Positions 4,201 to 31,854 of a stretch of DNA of 39,792 nucleotides are shown here, in pieces (positions within the stretch are counted from its first letter, which is position 1; every line of letters begins with the position of its first letter). The stretch is from positions 1 to 39,792 of the IMG/VR virus record IMGVR_UViG_3300032220_001558, one strand, 5' to 3'. This DNA is from a virus. The translations under genes and the position numbers were made by a program. The notes under the pieces are model-generated. The model was given only the letters and a program-made list of their open reading frames with translations. It had not been told where the DNA came from and did no database searches.

Positions 4201-6546
4201 ATGAATTCTTCTAAAATCAAAGTAAAAAAGCGAACAGGCGAACTGGAACCACTTGACATCAATAAAATGCACTTTGTGGTGGAGGAGGCCTGCGAGGGTC
4301 TATCAGGAGTATCAGCATCACAGATAGAAATGAATGCCAACATACAATTTTATGATGGTATCAGCACCAGAGACATACAAAGTGTGTTGGTCAAATCAGC
4401 CAACGACTTGATCACATTGGAAAATCCCAACTATCAATATGCCGCAGCAAGATTGTTGCTGTATGATCTACGCAAACAAGCACATGGTGATTATGAATAT
4501 CTACCATTGTTAAAACTGATCATTAGAAATATTAGATCCGGAGTGTATGACAAAACCATATTGGACAAATACAACAAGACTGAAATTAAAAAACTCAACA
4601 CTTGGATCAGAAGAGACAGAGATTTGGATTTTACCTATGCAGGACTGAGACAGATTGTGGACAAATATCTGGTGCAGGATCGTTCATCAGGAGCACTGTA
4701 TGAAACTCCACAGGACATGTACATGATGATTGCTGCCACATTGTTTATGAATTATCCTGAAAAGAAAAGAATGAGTTATGTGAAAAGATACTATGATGCT
4801 ATCTCCACACACAAAATTAACATTCCTACTCCAGTGATGGCAGGTGTGAGAACTCCCATACGTCAATTCGCCAGCTGTGTGTTGGTGGACTCAGATGACA
4901 CACTCACTTCCATATTCAGCAGTGACATGGCCATTGGACTCTATGTGGCACGTCGAGCAGGCATCGGCATCAATGCTGGCCGTATCAGAGGCATCAACAG
5001 CAAGATCAGAGGCGGTGAAGTACAGCACACAGGAGTGATTCCGTTCCTTAAGAAATTTGAAAGCACAGTGAGATGTTGCACACAGAACGGTGTGAGAGGT
5101 GGCAATGCCACTGTACACTTCCCCATATGGCACTCCGAGATTGAAGACATCTTGGTATTGAAAAACAACAAAGGCACTGAAGACAATCGTGTGCGAAGAA
5201 TGGATTATTCTATACAGATATCCAAATTGTTCTATGAAAGATTCATCAATGACGAAGAAATAACTCTGTTCTCGCCACATGAAGTGCCTGGACTCTATGA
5301 TGCATTTGGCACAGACACATTTGACGATCTGTATCTAAAATATGAAGCAGACAAAAAAATTCCTAAAAAAACCACTGGAGCACAGGAGTTGTTCTTTGAT
5401 CTACTGAAAGAACGAGCAGAAACAGGCAGAATCTACATCATGAATATTGATCATGTGAACAGTCATTCATCATTCAAAGACAGAGTCAGCATGAGTAATT
5501 TGTGTCAAGAAATCACACTGCCCACCACTCCCATACAGCACATAGATGATGTGAATGGTGAAATAGCACTGTGCATACTGAGTGCCATCAATGTGGGCAT
5601 AATCAATGATTTGGATGAATTGGAACCTTTGTGTGATCTGGCAGTGAGAGCATTGGAAGAGATCATAGACTATCAACAGTATCCGGTCAAAGCTGCCGAA
5701 GTCAGCACCAAAGCCAGACGTTCTTTGGGCATAGGCTATATTGGATTAGCACACTATCTGGCTCGCATGGAAGTCAAATATCATCACAAAGCCGCATGGG
5801 AGGCAGTGGACAAACTCACAGAAGCATTTCAATTCTATCTATTAAAAGCCAGCTGTCAATTGGCACAAGAACGAGGTCCATGTACAAAATTTGACAGAAC
5901 CAAATACGCAGATGGACTGTTGCCCATAGACACTTACAAGAAAGAAGTGGACGAAATTGTGCCACACAAAACCAGAATGGCTTGGGAGCAATTAAGAAAA
6001 GACATCAAACAGCATGGACTGAGACACAGCACACTGTCAGCACAGATGCCATCAGAAAGCAGTTCTGTGGTGAGCAATGCCACCAACGGTATTGAACCAC
6101 CCCGAGCACTGTTGAGCATTAAAAAAAGTAAAAAAGGACCACTCAAACAGGTTATACCAGGTTTTCCCAAACTGAAAAATTCATACACACTGCTGTGGGA
6201 CATGCCCAGCAATGATGGATATATTAAAATTGTGGCCATGATGCAGAAATATTTTGACCAAGCCATATCAGGCAACTGGAGTTACAATCCACTCAACTAT
6301 GCCAACAATGAAGTGCCACTGAGTGTGATGGCTGGTGACATGTTGAATGCCTACAAATATGGTTGGAAAACTTCCTATTATCAAAATACCTACGACTTCA
6401 AAGGTGATGAAGAAGATCTACAGCCCTCCGGCATTGATCCCATTGATACCAAAGATGGATCAGAGGACTTGACATTGCCAGAAAAAGACGCTAAAATAAA
6501 TACAGCATCCACAGACACAACTGACTGTGATGCATGTGCAATATAA
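4201..6546 (+). CDS. nrdA: Class Ia ribonucleotide reductase, large (alpha) subunit
   Basis: A full-length protein of 781 residues, close to E. coli NrdA along its whole length. It reduces ribonucleoside diphosphates to deoxy forms with NrdB. The N-terminal 90 residues form an ATP-cone-like domain. Visible catalytic residues are Cys226 (RQFASCVL), Asn433/Cys435/Glu437 in MSNLCQEI, Cys458 in ALCILSA, and the radical-relay tyrosines Tyr726/Tyr727 in SYYQNT. The C-terminal redox pair is Cys776-x2-Cys779 (DCDACAI) rather than the CxxxxC of E. coli. It is followed by a PspC-like gene and nrdB, and a glutaredoxin 1.4 kb downstream could reduce it. It supplies dNTPs for phage replication. Confidence 0.97.
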   Translation: MNSSKIKVKKRTGELEPLDINKMHFVVEEACEGLSGVSASQIEMNANIQFYDGISTRDIQSVLVKSANDLITLENPNYQYAAARLLLYDLRKQAHGDYEYLPLLKLIIRNIRSGVYDKTILDKYNKTEIKKLNTWIRRDRDLDFTYAGLRQIVDKYLVQDRSSGALYETPQDMYMMIAATLFMNYPEKKRMSYVKRYYDAISTHKINIPTPVMAGVRTPIRQFASCVLVDSDDTLTSIFSSDMAIGLYVARRAGIGINAGRIRGINSKIRGGEVQHTGVIPFLKKFESTVRCCTQNGVRGGNATVHFPIWHSEIEDILVLKNNKGTEDNRVRRMDYSIQISKLFYERFINDEEITLFSPHEVPGLYDAFGTDTFDDLYLKYEADKKIPKKTTGAQELFFDLLKERAETGRIYIMNIDHVNSHSSFKDRVSMSNLCQEITLPTTPIQHIDDVNGEIALCILSAINVGIINDLDELEPLCDLAVRALEEIIDYQQYPVKAAEVSTKARRSLGIGYIGLAHYLARMEVKYHHKAAWEAVDKLTEAFQFYLLKASCQLAQERGPCTKFDRTKYADGLLPIDTYKKEVDEIVPHKTRMAWEQLRKDIKQHGLRHSTLSAQMPSESSSVVSNATNGIEPPRALLSIKKSKKGPLKQVIPGFPKLKNSYTLLWDMPSNDGYIKIVAMMQKYFDQAISGNWSYNPLNYANNEVPLSVMAGDMLNAYKYGWKTSYYQNTYDFKGDEEDLQPSGIDPIDTKDGSEDLTLPEKDAKINTASTDTTDCDACAI

Positions 6547-9402: not shown

Positions 9403-9606
9403 ATGAATCAAGGTAAAGTTAAGTGGTACAACGCCGCTAAAGGTTACGGTTTTATCACTCCAGACGATGGCAGCAAAGATGTGTTTGTACATGCATCTGC
9501 TCTTAGAAGTGCCCAGTTGGAAGTGATCACAGAAGGTCAAGCAATCAGTTATGAATTGATTGAATCTCGTGGAAGAACTGCTGCCGGCAATCTAAGACTG
9601 ATATAA
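9403..9606 (+). CDS. csp: Cold-shock domain protein (CspA family)
   Basis: A protein of 67 residues with the whole CspA fold. It starts MNQGKVKWYNAAKGYGFITPDDG, with RNP1 in 'KGYGFI' and RNP2 in 'VFVHAS', and ends 'GRTAAGNLRLI'. These proteins bind single-stranded RNA and DNA and melt mRNA structure. It has its own late-type promoter and lies between the H1-like gene and the tmRNA, so this stretch groups nucleic-acid-handling factors. There is no convincing Shine-Dalgarno sequence (only AAGAAG). Confidence 0.95.
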   Translation: MNQGKVKWYNAAKGYGFITPDDGSKDVFVHASALRSAQLEVITEGQAISYELIESRGRTAAGNLRLI

Positions 9607-9653
9607 TCCATACATAGATCCAAAATCTACCCGTGGCACAGCAGAATCATCTG

Positions 9654-9683
9654 TTGACAATCACCATGGAATATGTTTAAATA
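9654..9683 (+). promoter_or_regulatory. Sigma70-type promoter of the tmRNA gene
   Basis: TTGACA at 9654-9659. A weak -10, TTAAAT (9677-9682, spacer 17) or TAAATA (9678-9683, spacer 18), gives a start near 9690, just ahead of the tmRNA acceptor piece. Confidence 0.55.
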
Positions 9684-9689
9684 CTGATG

Positions 9690-10014
9690 TAGGCGATGAA
9701 GTGATTGTAATAATCATGTAGGACTCGGCTCGATGCCGACACCTCCACCAAATTCGCTCACGCGAAACATAATATGTTATGCTTCACGGGGGTGAAATGT
9801 TTCGACTAATGATGAAAAGATCATGGAGTTTACCAGTGAGGGCTCTGTAAAGGCTCAACATTACAAATGCTAACAAGCGTTTCGTATCAGAAGTAACAAT
9901 CCCTGCTAACTTTTTAGTTGGCTCGGAATTGATGGCAGCCTAAAAACCTGCTACTTCGGAGAGTGATCACACTTGGCAACAGAACGTGATCAGTGGTGGG
10001 AGGCAACTCCCACC
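9690..10014 (+). ncRNA. ssrA: Circularly permuted two-piece tmRNA
   Basis: The acceptor piece comes first and ends in CCACCA at 9745-9750. Its T-arm is TCGG-CTCGATG-CCGA (9725-9739). The coding piece begins GGGGGTG at 9788-9794, which pairs over 7 bp (one G-T) with CACCTCC at 9740-9746 to make the acceptor stem; discriminator A and CCA follow. TTTCGAC (9800-9806) is the D-loop analogue. ATGAT near 9809 pairs with ATCAT near 9713 as helix P2. The spacer between the pieces has a TTCGC-TCAC-GCGAA hairpin (9753-9766), as expected for a processed loop. The likely resume codon is GCT 9869-9871, 81 bases into the coding piece; the tag frame runs to TAA 9941-9943, starts ANKRFVSEVT and ends SELMAA (24 residues). 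The permuted two-piece form is typical of alphaproteobacteria. The 5' and 3' ends are estimates. Confidence 0.88.
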
Positions 10015-17206: not shown

Positions 17207-17509
17207 ATGAGCAAAACCAAAACAGATGTGGTGATTGATGAGAAGGTTCAACAGATAGTGCTGGAACCAGAACCGGTCAAGGTCATAATGCTGAACGATG
17301 ACATCACTCCTGTGGACTTTGTGGTGGAATTACTAATAAAAATATTCAAACACACAGAAGAATCAGCCAAAGAGATCACACTGAAGATACACACCGAAGG
17401 CAGCAGTGTGGTGGGAGCATACAGTTTCGAAGTGGCAGAACAAAAAACCAAAGAAGCCATAGAAGAATCTAGAAGCAGAGGATTCCCCCTACAAGTAAGA
17501 ATGGAATAA
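17207..17509 (+). CDS. clpS: ClpS adaptor for the Clp protease
   Basis: A protein of 100 residues, the full size of ClpS. It has 'VKVIMLNDDITPVDFVVELL' with the substrate-binding Asn30-Asp31-Asp32 and 'LKIHTEGSSVVGAYSFEVAEQK' with His62, matching the N-degron pocket residues of E. coli (Asn34, Asp35, His66). The pocket gatekeeper, Met40 in E. coli, is Val36 here. ClpS delivers proteins with bulky N-terminal residues to ClpAP and blocks other substrates. Two bases separate it from heme oxygenase. The phage also encodes ClpP (21152) and a tmRNA, so part of host proteolysis may be redirected. No Clp ATPase is seen in this window. Confidence 0.93.
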   Translation: MSKTKTDVVIDEKVQQIVLEPEPVKVIMLNDDITPVDFVVELLIKIFKHTEESAKEITLKIHTEGSSVVGAYSFEVAEQKTKEAIEESRSRGFPLQVRME

Positions 17510-17511
17510 TC

Positions 17512-18042
17512 ATGAGCCTTAAAGATCTCACTTGGGAACATCACAAAAACGCAGAGCGTCAAAAGTTTGTGAAGGTTATGTTTTCAGGCAGCATAGATCC
17601 CAAACTTTACGCAGAATTTTTATTCAATCAATTTAATTCTTATGATCTGTTGGAGGCTATGGCTATGTCACATGGATTGTTCAATGACATGCCTGATGTG
17701 CGAAGAGCTCCAAAAATTTATGAAGATTTTAAAGAATTATGGCAGGATGATACTGTGCCAGAAATTAAATCCAGTGTGAAAGAATATCTTGCACATCTTA
17801 AAACAATCAAAGACAATCCAACTGCATTGATGGCGCATATCTATGTGCGACACATGGGAGATCTGTCTGGTGGTCAGATGATTCGCAAAAAAGTGCCTGG
17901 ACTGGGTAAAATGTTTGATTTTGAAAACAGAGATAAGGCCAAAGAAGTTATCAGATCCAAGATCAATGACTCAATGGCAGATGAAGCAAAGAAATGTTTT
18001 GAATTTGCCACTGCCTTGTTTAAAGAAATGATCAATGACTAA
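17512..18042 (+). CDS. ho1: Heme oxygenase
   Basis: A protein of 176 residues, somewhat shorter than cyanobacterial HO1. The proximal heme ligand is probably His11 in 'TWEHHKNAERQKF' (the HxxAE motif), and the distal-helix signature is 'RHMGDLSGGQMIRKK' with GDLSGGQ at 116-122. It opens heme with oxygen and reductant to biliverdin IX-alpha, CO and iron. The bilin reductase at 18219, in the same operon, is the natural consumer of the biliverdin. Heme oxygenase of this kind is known in cyanophages and in uncultured oceanic phages that pair it with PcyX. The end overlaps the next small gene by 8 bases. Confidence 0.94.
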   Translation: MSLKDLTWEHHKNAERQKFVKVMFSGSIDPKLYAEFLFNQFNSYDLLEAMAMSHGLFNDMPDVRRAPKIYEDFKELWQDDTVPEIKSSVKEYLAHLKTIKDNPTALMAHIYVRHMGDLSGGQMIRKKVPGLGKMFDFENRDKAKEVIRSKINDSMADEAKKCFEFATALFKEMIND

Positions 18043-18217
18043 AAAGAAAAAATTCAAAGACTTCCCGGGTAATCTTATCAAAATAAAAGTGTTGGAAGAT
18101 GAAATAAGTTATTTTAAAACACAGATTCAAGAACACGACACAGGTCATATCTACACCACCATAGACACACTGAAAGACAGAGTGAGAGAGCTCAAAGGTC
18201 TACCAGAAGAATATTAA
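18035..18217 (+). CDS. Small coiled-coil phage protein between heme oxygenase and bilin reductase
   Basis: A protein of 60 residues: basic start (MTKKKKFKDFPG), then a heptad-like helix ('IKVLEDEISYFKTQIQEHDTGHIYTTIDTLKDRVREL'). The 'DTGHIYTTI' box is one I associate with small proteins scattered through T4-like cyanophage genomes. It overlaps heme oxygenase by 8 bases and ends one base before the reductase, so all three are translated together. No role in bilin synthesis is indicated. Confidence 0.7.
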   Translation: MTKKKKFKDFPGNLIKIKVLEDEISYFKTQIQEHDTGHIYTTIDTLKDRVRELKGLPEEY

Positions 18218-18218
18218 T

Positions 18219-18914
18219 ATGAGCAGTATCTGGAATATCCTTATAGAATGCAAGGATAATATCATCAAAGAATTTGATTTGCGAGGTCGAGAGATTCAAG
18301 AACCCGGCATGAGCAGATTCAATCAACCTGAAAATGGTTGGATCAATAGAGTATGGGAAACCGAACACTGTCGTCGATGTCACATAGACGTGGTGGATGC
18401 TAGACAATCCAAAGGCCTTTGGATGATGCATGTGTGTGTATTTCCACATTTGCACAACAATGGTCCTATCTATGGATTTGATGTGATTGCTGGAGAACAC
18501 AAAATGACTGGCGCATTTCATGACTTTTCACGCAGTTCAGGCGGAGAAACCCATCCATTGATAGAATGGTATCATCAAGCAGTGTCAGAATTTGTACCCA
18601 CTAAGAAAAGAAAATTGCCAGAATGGGCATTGAACATATTTTCAGGCAGTATGATTGCTGCAGGCAATGTACAAACCGATGAAGAAGCCACAGCCATTGT
18701 GAATCTTGCAGTGAACAACTTACGAGTGTATTTTGATAGCATAGGACAATATGCTCACACAGCCAAAGAAGCAGATACCATTGAAGCACAAAATTATTAT
18801 TGTCACAATCAGCAACAGAATCCACACACACCTAGAGTGATGAAAAGTTTAGGTTTGGCTGAAGCAGATGTGGAATTGTTCTGCACCGACGCATTGTTTC
18901 CAAAAATACGATAA
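18219..18914 (+). CDS. pcyX: Ferredoxin-dependent bilin reductase, PcyX type
   Basis: A protein of 231 residues. The family is shown by 'LWMMHVCVFPHLHNNGPIYGFDVIAGEHKMTGAFHDFS' (central Asp88, with His71 on the sheet) and the C-terminal 'YYCHNQQQNPHTPRVMKSLGL', the YxxNQxxNxxT box of PcyA/PebS/PcyX enzymes, with Asp186 just before it as the likely second proton donor. It reduces biliverdin with electrons from ferredoxin. PcyX enzymes from uncultured oceanic phages make phycoerythrobilin in a four-electron reaction. Product specificity here is inferred from the sequence type and from pairing with heme oxygenase in a phage without a cyanobacterial signature. No ferredoxin gene is in the window. 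A terminator follows. Confidence 0.88.
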   Translation: MSSIWNILIECKDNIIKEFDLRGREIQEPGMSRFNQPENGWINRVWETEHCRRCHIDVVDARQSKGLWMMHVCVFPHLHNNGPIYGFDVIAGEHKMTGAFHDFSRSSGGETHPLIEWYHQAVSEFVPTKKRKLPEWALNIFSGSMIAAGNVQTDEEATAIVNLAVNNLRVYFDSIGQYAHTAKEADTIEAQNYYCHNQQQNPHTPRVMKSLGLAEADVELFCTDALFPKIR

Positions 18915-21151: not shown

Positions 21152-21742
21152 ATGCCATCATTAGTACCCATAGTTATAGAACAAGAAGCCAGAGGAGAAC
21201 GTTCCTACGACATATACAGTCGACTGCTCAAAGATAGATTAGTGATGTTGGATACAGATGTGAATCCAATCAGTGCCAGTCTTATAGTAAGTCAACTTTT
21301 ATTTTTAGAAAGTGAAGCAGTCAAACCCATACATTTTTATATCAATTCACCAGGAGGATTGGTCACAGCAGGTTTAGGAATCTACGATACCATGCAATAC
21401 ATCAAATCTCCAGTGTACACCTATGTGATTGGTCAGGCTTGCTCTATGGGCAGTCTATTGGCACAATCAGGTGAAGCCGGACACAGATACATGCTAAAAC
21501 ATGCTAGACACATGATACACCAACCATCAGGTGGCACTCAAGGTCAAGCCACAGACATACAAATTCATGCTCAAGAGATCCTTAAACTTAAAAAGGAACT
21601 CACTCAGATCTATGTTAATCACAATTCCAAAGGCAAAACCTTTGAGCAATTGAGTGCTGATATGGAAAGAGACAAATTCATGAACGCCCAAGAATCCCTT
21701 GAGTATGGATTGATAGATAAAATTCTATCTAAAAAAGACTAA
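21152..21742 (+). CDS. clpP: ClpP protease subunit
   Basis: A protein of 196 residues, full ClpP length. The catalytic triad is complete: Ser98 in '[11 protein letters not shown]', His123 in '[10 protein letters not shown]' and Asp174 in '[13 protein letters not shown]'. 'FYINSPGG' and 'YGLIDKIL' are also typical. It forms the proteolytic barrel that works with ClpX or ClpA. Phage ClpP could form pure or mixed barrels with the host enzyme. With the phage ClpS and a tmRNA whose tag ends in LMAA it makes a possible phage-directed protein disposal route. The N-terminal '[26 protein letters not shown]' is ordinary for the family. Confidence 0.96.
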
Positions 21743-31506: not shown

Positions 31507-31854
31507 ATGGCTGTAATCACTGTCACTGAAAGAGCAATCGAAAAGATCAAAGAGTTGTGTCATCACAACAACAAATATGCTGTGAGACTCAGCATCAAAG
31601 GTGGTGGGTGTGCAGGTTATTCCTACGATTGGGGATTTGCTGATCAATCAGAAATTGCACCTGCAGATGAGCTGTTAAACTTTGGCAATGGAGCCAAGTT
31701 CACCATAGATGCTGCCAGTGTGATGTATATCCTAGGCACTGAGTTGGATTATGTGACTGAAGTGTTTGGATCACATTTTGACATTCGCAATCCCAATGCT
31801 AAGAGCGCATGTGGTTGTGGTGAGAGCATCAGTTTTGAAAAGGAGACAGCATAA
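31507..31854 (+). CDS. iscA: A-type Fe-S carrier (HesB/IscA family)
   Basis: A protein of 115 residues with the three conserved cysteines: Cys35 in 'KGGGCAGYSYDW' and Cys102/Cys104 in 'KSACGCGESISF'. Family members bind iron or a 2Fe-2S/4Fe-4S cluster and deliver it to apo-proteins. HesB-like genes are common in T4-like marine phages. Here it is expressed from a late promoter and sits 3 bases ahead of the giant tail fibre gene, so it could be tied to virion assembly; that is inference. Confidence 0.92.
   Translation: MAVITVTERAIEKIKELCHHNNKYAVRLSIKGGGCAGYSYDWGFADQSEIAPADELLNFGNGAKFTIDAASVMYILGTELDYVTEVFGSHFDIRNPNAKSACGCGESISFEKETA

Follow-up and report, generated by a model that had tools for sequence, protein, structure and literature searches.

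A phage-encoded, circularly permuted tmRNA gene with a short T arm and an altered D-region

Gene content around the tmRNA locus

The window, by which we mean the whole stretch of DNA analysed here, is a 39.8-kb IMG/VR record with a G+C content of 40%. Its tmRNA gene is surrounded by T4-like phage genes, including nrdA, nrdB, a DNA ligase gene, UvdE and a gene for a large tail protein. The nearest homologue of the NrdA sequence is that of Pelagibacter phage Mosig (73%). The cold-shock protein gene (cspA) lies directly upstream of the tmRNA gene, and this order is retained in the relatives. The window also encodes an Hsp20, a heme oxygenase and a bilin reductase. The latter two genes follow each other at positions 17512-18914, the heme oxygenase (nearest to that of phage Mosig, 49.5%) preceding a ferredoxin-dependent bilin reductase; the pair resembles tetrapyrrole cassettes that have been described in aquatic phages (PMC11480375). 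Two iron-sulphur proteins, NifU-like and Fe-S_biosyn (IscA-type), are encoded at positions 962-1336 and 31507-31851.

Two further genes encode possible functional partners of the tmRNA, a ClpS adaptor and a ClpP protease, the latter exhibiting the GQACSMG, MIHQP and ERD motifs. ClpS was found in 15 and ClpP-family proteins in 14 of 24 related records, most of which are fragments. The near relatives of at least 20 kb exhibit both ClpS and a full-strength ClpP, while the Mosig record exhibits neither. In 29 of 50 related records a tmRNA exceeds the cut-off score. A 328-kb viral record (L168, G034) combines a permuted tmRNA with ClpS and three ClpP-family proteins. Coordinates of the features are given in Table 1.

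Table 1. Features of the permuted tmRNA gene and of associated genes in the window
Feature	Positions	Strand	Evidence or remark
Cold-shock protein gene, directly upstream of the tmRNA	9403..9606	+	PF00313
Sigma70-like promoter, TTGACA-17 nt-TTAAAT, TG one base before the second hexamer	9654..9682	+	Conserved
Acceptor (3') piece, ending A73-CCA	9689..9750	+	RF04321 and RF01849 alignments; covarying strands
T arm, 15 nt; 5-bp stem TCGGC/GCCGA and 5-nt loop TCGAT	9725..9739	+	Comparison among permuted tmRNAs
Acceptor stem, 3' strand CACCTCC, U70 pairing with G3	9740..9746	+	7/7 pairs
Intervening loop, 37 nt, presumably excised to leave two pieces	9751..9787	+	Predicted
Coding (5') piece, 3' end somewhere in 9994-10014	9788..10014	+	Rfam and alignment of relatives
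Acceptor stem, 5' strand GGGGGTG	9788..9794	+	Rfam and covariation
D-loop-like segment AAATGTTTCGAC, 12 nt, without GG	9795..9806	+	Usual form AAATAGGATCGAC, 13 nt
P2 strands of the coding piece, TAATGA, GATCAT, GTTTAC	9807..9833	+	Pairing in register, covariation
Tag frame, resume codon GCT, 24 aa ANKRFVSEVTIPANFLVGSELMAA, stop TAA	9869..9943	+	ARAGORN at relaxed threshold; dN/dS
3' domain, 7-bp stem TGATCAC/GTGATCA around alpha-type TGGCAACAGAA	9964..9992	+	Aligned to the alpha_tmRNA 3' end
3' hairpin GGTGGGAG-GCAA-CTCCCACC, GNRA loop, 8 bp, no T run	9995..10014	+	Alignment of relatives
ClpS adaptor, possible functional partner	17207..17509	+	PF02617, E = 5.5e-27
ClpP protease, possible functional partner	21152..21742	+	PF00574, E = 7.7e-72

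Identification of a permuted tmRNA

The region 9689-10014 is a circularly permuted (two-piece) tmRNA gene of the alphaproteobacterial type. The Rfam model tmRNA_permuted (RF04321) matches at 9692-9943 with 79.6 bits (E-value = 8e-14, gathering score 47), and alpha_tmRNA (RF01849) at 9650-9994 with 62.9 bits (E-value = 4.3e-15, gathering score 50). A sequence-only reading of the window had proposed a phage-encoded permuted tmRNA at this place and had named a lack of covariance-model matches as one possible refutation; both models, when run, score above gathering, and the T4-like genes around the locus agree with the phage assignment. The landmarks of that reading are also found where it had placed them: CCACCA ending at 9750, GGGGGTG starting at 9788, TTTCGAC at 9800-9806 and the tag frame at 9869-9943. 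ARAGORN, another check that it had suggested, called no tmRNA in the window at default settings. A threshold of 80% applied to an 800-bp piece returned exactly one permuted tmRNA, with the very tag listed in Table 1.

The structure at 9689-10014 is beyond chance. An anatomical grammar consisting of a 7-bp acceptor stem across the loop, a 5-bp T stem and TCGAC matches once in the window and not at all in 100 Markov-simulated windows. The tmRNA also folds more stably than its dinucleotide shuffles (z = -3.7).

The acceptor piece precedes the coding piece, and the two are joined by the 7-bp stem GGGGGUG/CACCUCC, which retains 7/7 pairs in 12/12 sequences with both-sided changes at two of the pairs. 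Neither the G3.U70 wobble nor the CCA varies among the 12 sequences, and ACCA is encoded. The identity set for alanyl-tRNA synthetase (AlaRS; G3.U70, A73 and CCA) is present. The intervening loop varies from 30 to 42 nt among the relatives. Three further helices cross between the pieces, GUAGGC/GUUUAC, GUGAUU/GAUCAU and UCAU(g)UA/UAAUGA, the acceptor-piece partners of the P2 strands lying at 9714-9720 (for TAATGA), 9701-9706 (GATCAT) and 9689-9694 (GTTTAC). Both strands of the inner two P2 helices differ in L014, L016 and L017, and both strands of the outer one in L014 and L017, with pairing retained in each case.

Covariation was quantified over 30 named pairs in 12 relatives. These are paired in 93.9% of cases versus 77.2% after shuffling, and double-change cells number 58 versus 20 ± 3. 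Double changes occur at 20 of the 30 pairs, 14 of them among the 18 pairs of the three P2 helices. None of 500 shuffles reaches any of the covariation measures, the shuffles ignoring relatedness and the structure being drawn from the same 12 sequences. When the partners are slid by 1-3 columns, pairing falls to 38-47%; the covariation agrees with these slid controls and with the independent Rfam models. Cognate pieces exhibit 16-18 of 18 P2 pairs in register and non-cognate pieces 9-15. We judged P2 matching by these in-register counts in place of free-register duplex energies, which gave a noisy comparison of cognate with non-cognate strands (127 of 40,320 permutations did equally well).

One relative, L014 (contig 3300010354_018384, tmRNA at 5287-5470), exhibits a tRNA-like part and P2 strands from an otherwise unseen lineage. 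Its tag and 3' domain are nearly identical to those of L002, and both of its P2 strands have been exchanged jointly; this tmRNA looks like a recombinant.

A short T arm and a coordinated change in the D-region

The T arm (UCGGC-UCGAU-GCCGA as RNA) is 2 nt shorter than the usual 17 nt (5 bp and a 7-nt loop), a point overlooked in the sequence-only reading. Among the permuted tmRNAs compared, we distinguished 39 T-arm/D-region types with a 17-nt arm and eight with a 15-nt arm. GG is absent from the D-region in all eight short-arm types, seven of which have a D-region of 11-12 nt, below the 13 nt that 37 of the 39 types with a 17-nt arm exhibit; GG is present in 32 of those 39. The typical T arm of 5 bp and 7 nt is not found in the window, and the Rfam model scores the tmRNA as a member anyway. 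By score, layout and covariation the window copy classes as a tmRNA_permuted member, and by T arm and D-region as a structural variant.

The stem variants TCGGC/GCCGA, CGGGC/GCCCG, CCGGC/GCCGG and TCCGG/CCGGA represent compensating changes. An alternative reading of the arm, with four stem pairs and the 7-nt loop CUCGAUG, is possible. We consider it the less likely one: L014 has G-C in place of C-G at the fifth pair, and a 12-bp stack is obtained only with a stem of 5 bp.

We scanned 2.9 million viral contigs for the pattern of a 15-nt arm and accepted matches only with a full 5-bp stem and the permuted layout. Within this set, the combination occurs only in the clade of the window and in a second group of phages (L365, L371, L387, L409 and L428), of which the tag is unrelated (ATKKAFGFADLTVGRSKMRLAA or AKSKAFGFADLTVGRSKMRLAA). 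A 5-bp match in L394, where the permuted layout is absent, was dropped. Within the second group the 33-nt intervening loop is almost invariant, and two kinds of 3' domain are swapped between members.

With default settings, ARAGORN finds 32 of 34 ordinary permuted copies but none of the 15 short-arm copies. The 53 two-piece phage tmRNAs published previously were counted with this program (PMC9004378), and a survey of huge phages likewise relied on it (PMC7162821). Both surveys would therefore have missed the short-arm form, and their counts are lower bounds, since all 15 short-arm copies tried were missed. Phage permuted tmRNA has been described (PMC9004378), and the tmRNA database holds 79 phage tmRNA sequences, all forms together (PMC11915505). 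Two-piece tmRNAs of phages such as Melnitz and Mosig being already known, the short-T-arm form appears to be the new part; no description of it was found in the literature searched, of which the coverage was partial.

Few parts of tRNA-like RNAs are as conserved as the D/T-loop elbow, to which SmpB binds. The coordinated change of T arm and D-region is notable because D/T-loop interactions are reported to be required for SmpB binding (PMC3968760). A natural tmRNA that alters both elbow loops and keeps the rest allows a direct test of the minimum elbow that trans-translation needs. We tentatively propose, as a real possibility somewhat short of probable, a remodelled class of phage tmRNA present in two or more groups of aquatic phages whose tags are unrelated. 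With its 5-nt T-loop, a D-region without GG and the 12-bp stack kept, it would offer SmpB a different elbow contact, probably without the usual T-loop modifications. Such an RNA may avoid host control or a nuclease, or may favour phage-controlled rescue together with phage ClpP and ClpS.

The altered elbow could alternatively be a counter-defence spare part, escaping host RNases or toxins that hit the elbow of tmRNA or tRNA during infection. According to one report, phage tRNAs with altered anticodon loops escape defences that target tRNA (PMC10264068), and the elbow change is both coordinated between T arm and D-region and kept in two groups of phages that differ in their tags. However, we identified no defence system or nuclease known for the elbow site, and the sister phages L006 and L016 exhibit a normal T arm. 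We regard this explanation as unlikely.

Conservation of the tag, the promoter and the 3' end

The tag consists of 24 codons in all relatives of the window and ends with a hydrophobic-Ala-Ala (Clp-type) sequence, LMAA in the window and LMAA, LLAA or LVAA among the relatives. In every comparison of tags dN is lower than dS (window versus L017: dN 0.25, dS 0.93), the tag being short, the counts small and the sequences few; the tag appears to be under purifying selection. The resume codon of L017 is GGC and its tag GKTPFVAELKIPSNLLVRSELLAA. The alphaproteobacterial tags sampled are mostly 10-15 aa long and start with ANDN, while the window tag starts with ANKR; the tags of related marine phages are mostly 28-29 aa long (e.g. 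ANDNALSNVTFVDFSAPVTAVNEDFALAA). Small alphaproteobacterial genomes of the order of G274 (L250-L275) exhibit long arginine-/lysine-rich tags (e.g. AKNINGRRRRRKAVNRNSKTAVAKAA) in place of the ANDN...LAA form.

The promoter ends 7 nt upstream of 9689, and the predicted start is at about 9689. It is kept in 12/12 aligned relatives, with small changes in L017 and L018, and in the second short-arm phage group. It escaped a strict consensus promoter scan, as position 2 of the second hexamer is not A. At the other end, the 3'-domain motif TGGCAACAGAA is conserved in all relatives of the window, taking the form TGGGAACAGAA in L017 and L018. The 3' hairpin is nearly invariant in 12/12 relatives (the loop being GCGA in L016); no intrinsic terminator was called, and the hairpin at 9995-10014 was not scored as one.

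These data bear on two further explanations. The RNA might interfere with host trans-translation as a decoy or inhibitor, its tRNA-like domain titrating SmpB or blocking the host tmRNA, with tagging being secondary. The altered elbow would fit such a role, and the tmRNA of mycobacteriophage DS6A comprises little beyond the tRNA-like domain, a form reported to be strongly inhibitory to tmRNA (PMC4131195; PMC11915505). Yet a decoy needs no tag frame, resume context, P2 or 3' domain, all of which are conserved here, with dN below dS. Since the message part is under selection, we consider a decoy improbable. Alternatively, the gene might be a decaying, functionless remnant derived from a host, the 15-nt T arm being damage. 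The default ARAGORN call is indeed absent and the usual T-loop consensus lost, but the same arm recurs in eight distinct T-arm/D-region types with compensating stem changes, the covariation is strong, and promoter and tag are conserved. A remnant is thereby very improbable.

Proposed function

The explanation that we prefer, and consider quite probable, is a phage ssrA acting in ordinary trans-translation together with SmpB and AlaRS of the host, with a compact elbow and with Clp removal of the products. From the sequence anatomy, the covariation, the conserved tag and promoter and the gene neighbours, we infer the following course of transcription, processing, charging, tagging and benefit. 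A single transcript would run from the gene's own promoter, starting at about 9689, through 10014. Host tRNA-processing enzymes would excise the 37-nt loop. The two products, an acceptor piece (9689-9750) and a coding piece that extends from 9788 to about 10014, would stay associated through the acceptor stem and the three P2 helices. Host AlaRS would charge the RNA with alanine via G3.U70 and A73, and host SmpB, EF-Tu and S1 would deliver it to stalled ribosomes. The 24-aa tag ending with LMAA would be added and the ribosome released, and Clp proteases, possibly including phage ClpP and ClpS, would clear the tagged product. The compact elbow (5-nt T-loop, D-region without GG) would keep the 7 + 5 = 12-bp stack that tRNA enzymes measure. 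The likely benefit would be free ribosomes and recycled amino acids during the degradation of host and phage mRNAs.

Host SmpB is presumably used, since SmpB was found in 0/25 records (the window and its relatives, mostly fragments, with no complete genome of the clade); a phage SmpB elsewhere in the genome is possible. Binding of SmpB by the window tmRNA is not assured, since the D/T-loop interaction is reported to be necessary (PMC3968760) and both elbow loops are altered.

By genome neighbourhood, the tmRNA may be tied to the phage ClpP and ClpS. Against such a tie, ClpS lowers the use of ssrA-tagged substrates by ClpA in E. coli. The co-encoded ClpP and ClpS suggest that both steps, the tagging of stalled products and their removal, may be under the control of these phages.

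Host and origin

The sequence-only reading took the gene as pointing to the host and to capture of a ribosome-rescue gene. The RNA is indeed of the alpha type, and permuted tmRNA scores above the cut-off in 263 of 289 sampled alphaproteobacterial genomes. However, the type of ssrA does not fix the host, because phage Melnitz, with an alpha-type ssrA, infects the gammaproteobacterial OM43 clade (PMC9004378); the tmRNA is a weak pointer to the host. The lineage as a whole may plausibly have acquired the gene from a host, but the window copy itself is a long-standing phage version, because its T arm, D-region and tag match no cellular tmRNA compared and are shared by many phage contigs. Similarity of the tmRNA revealed no cellular donor among hundreds of Alphaproteobacteria, because the BLAST matches listed cover little beyond the tRNA-like part, and a direct nucleotide search of isolated phages gave no match.

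Comparison with known systems

Mosig (L193) resembles the window in being a T4-like aquatic phage with a permuted alpha-type tmRNA and the acceptor stem GGGGGTG/CACCTCC. It differs by its 17-nt T arm, by GG in the D-region, by the tag end DNFALAA and by a record without a ClpS or ClpP match. Melnitz, compared through its published description (PMC9004378), is likewise a T4-like aquatic phage with a permuted alpha-type ssrA; a glutamine riboswitch accompanies that gene, whereas the window exhibits no Rfam riboswitch match.

The two-piece tmRNA of alphaproteobacteria (RF01849, Caulobacter type) shares with the window the gene order, the acceptor identity, the P2 pairing and the GGCAACAGAA 3' motif, but the cellular tags sampled are mostly 10-15 aa long and start with ANDN, and the 15-nt T arm sets the window apart from these tmRNAs. 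The cspA-linked tmRNAs of marine phages (L043-L074) are similar to the window in having cspA upstream, often ClpS downstream, and long tags (mostly 28-29 aa). In contrast to the window, their T arm is of 17 nt and most of their tags end with FALAA; their ClpP-like protein, where present, is divergent except in G036 and G034. Mycobacteriophage DS6A shares with the window a phage-borne tRNA-like domain (PMC4131195). The DS6A RNA has little beyond this domain, while the window tmRNA exhibits a full message part, which is conserved.
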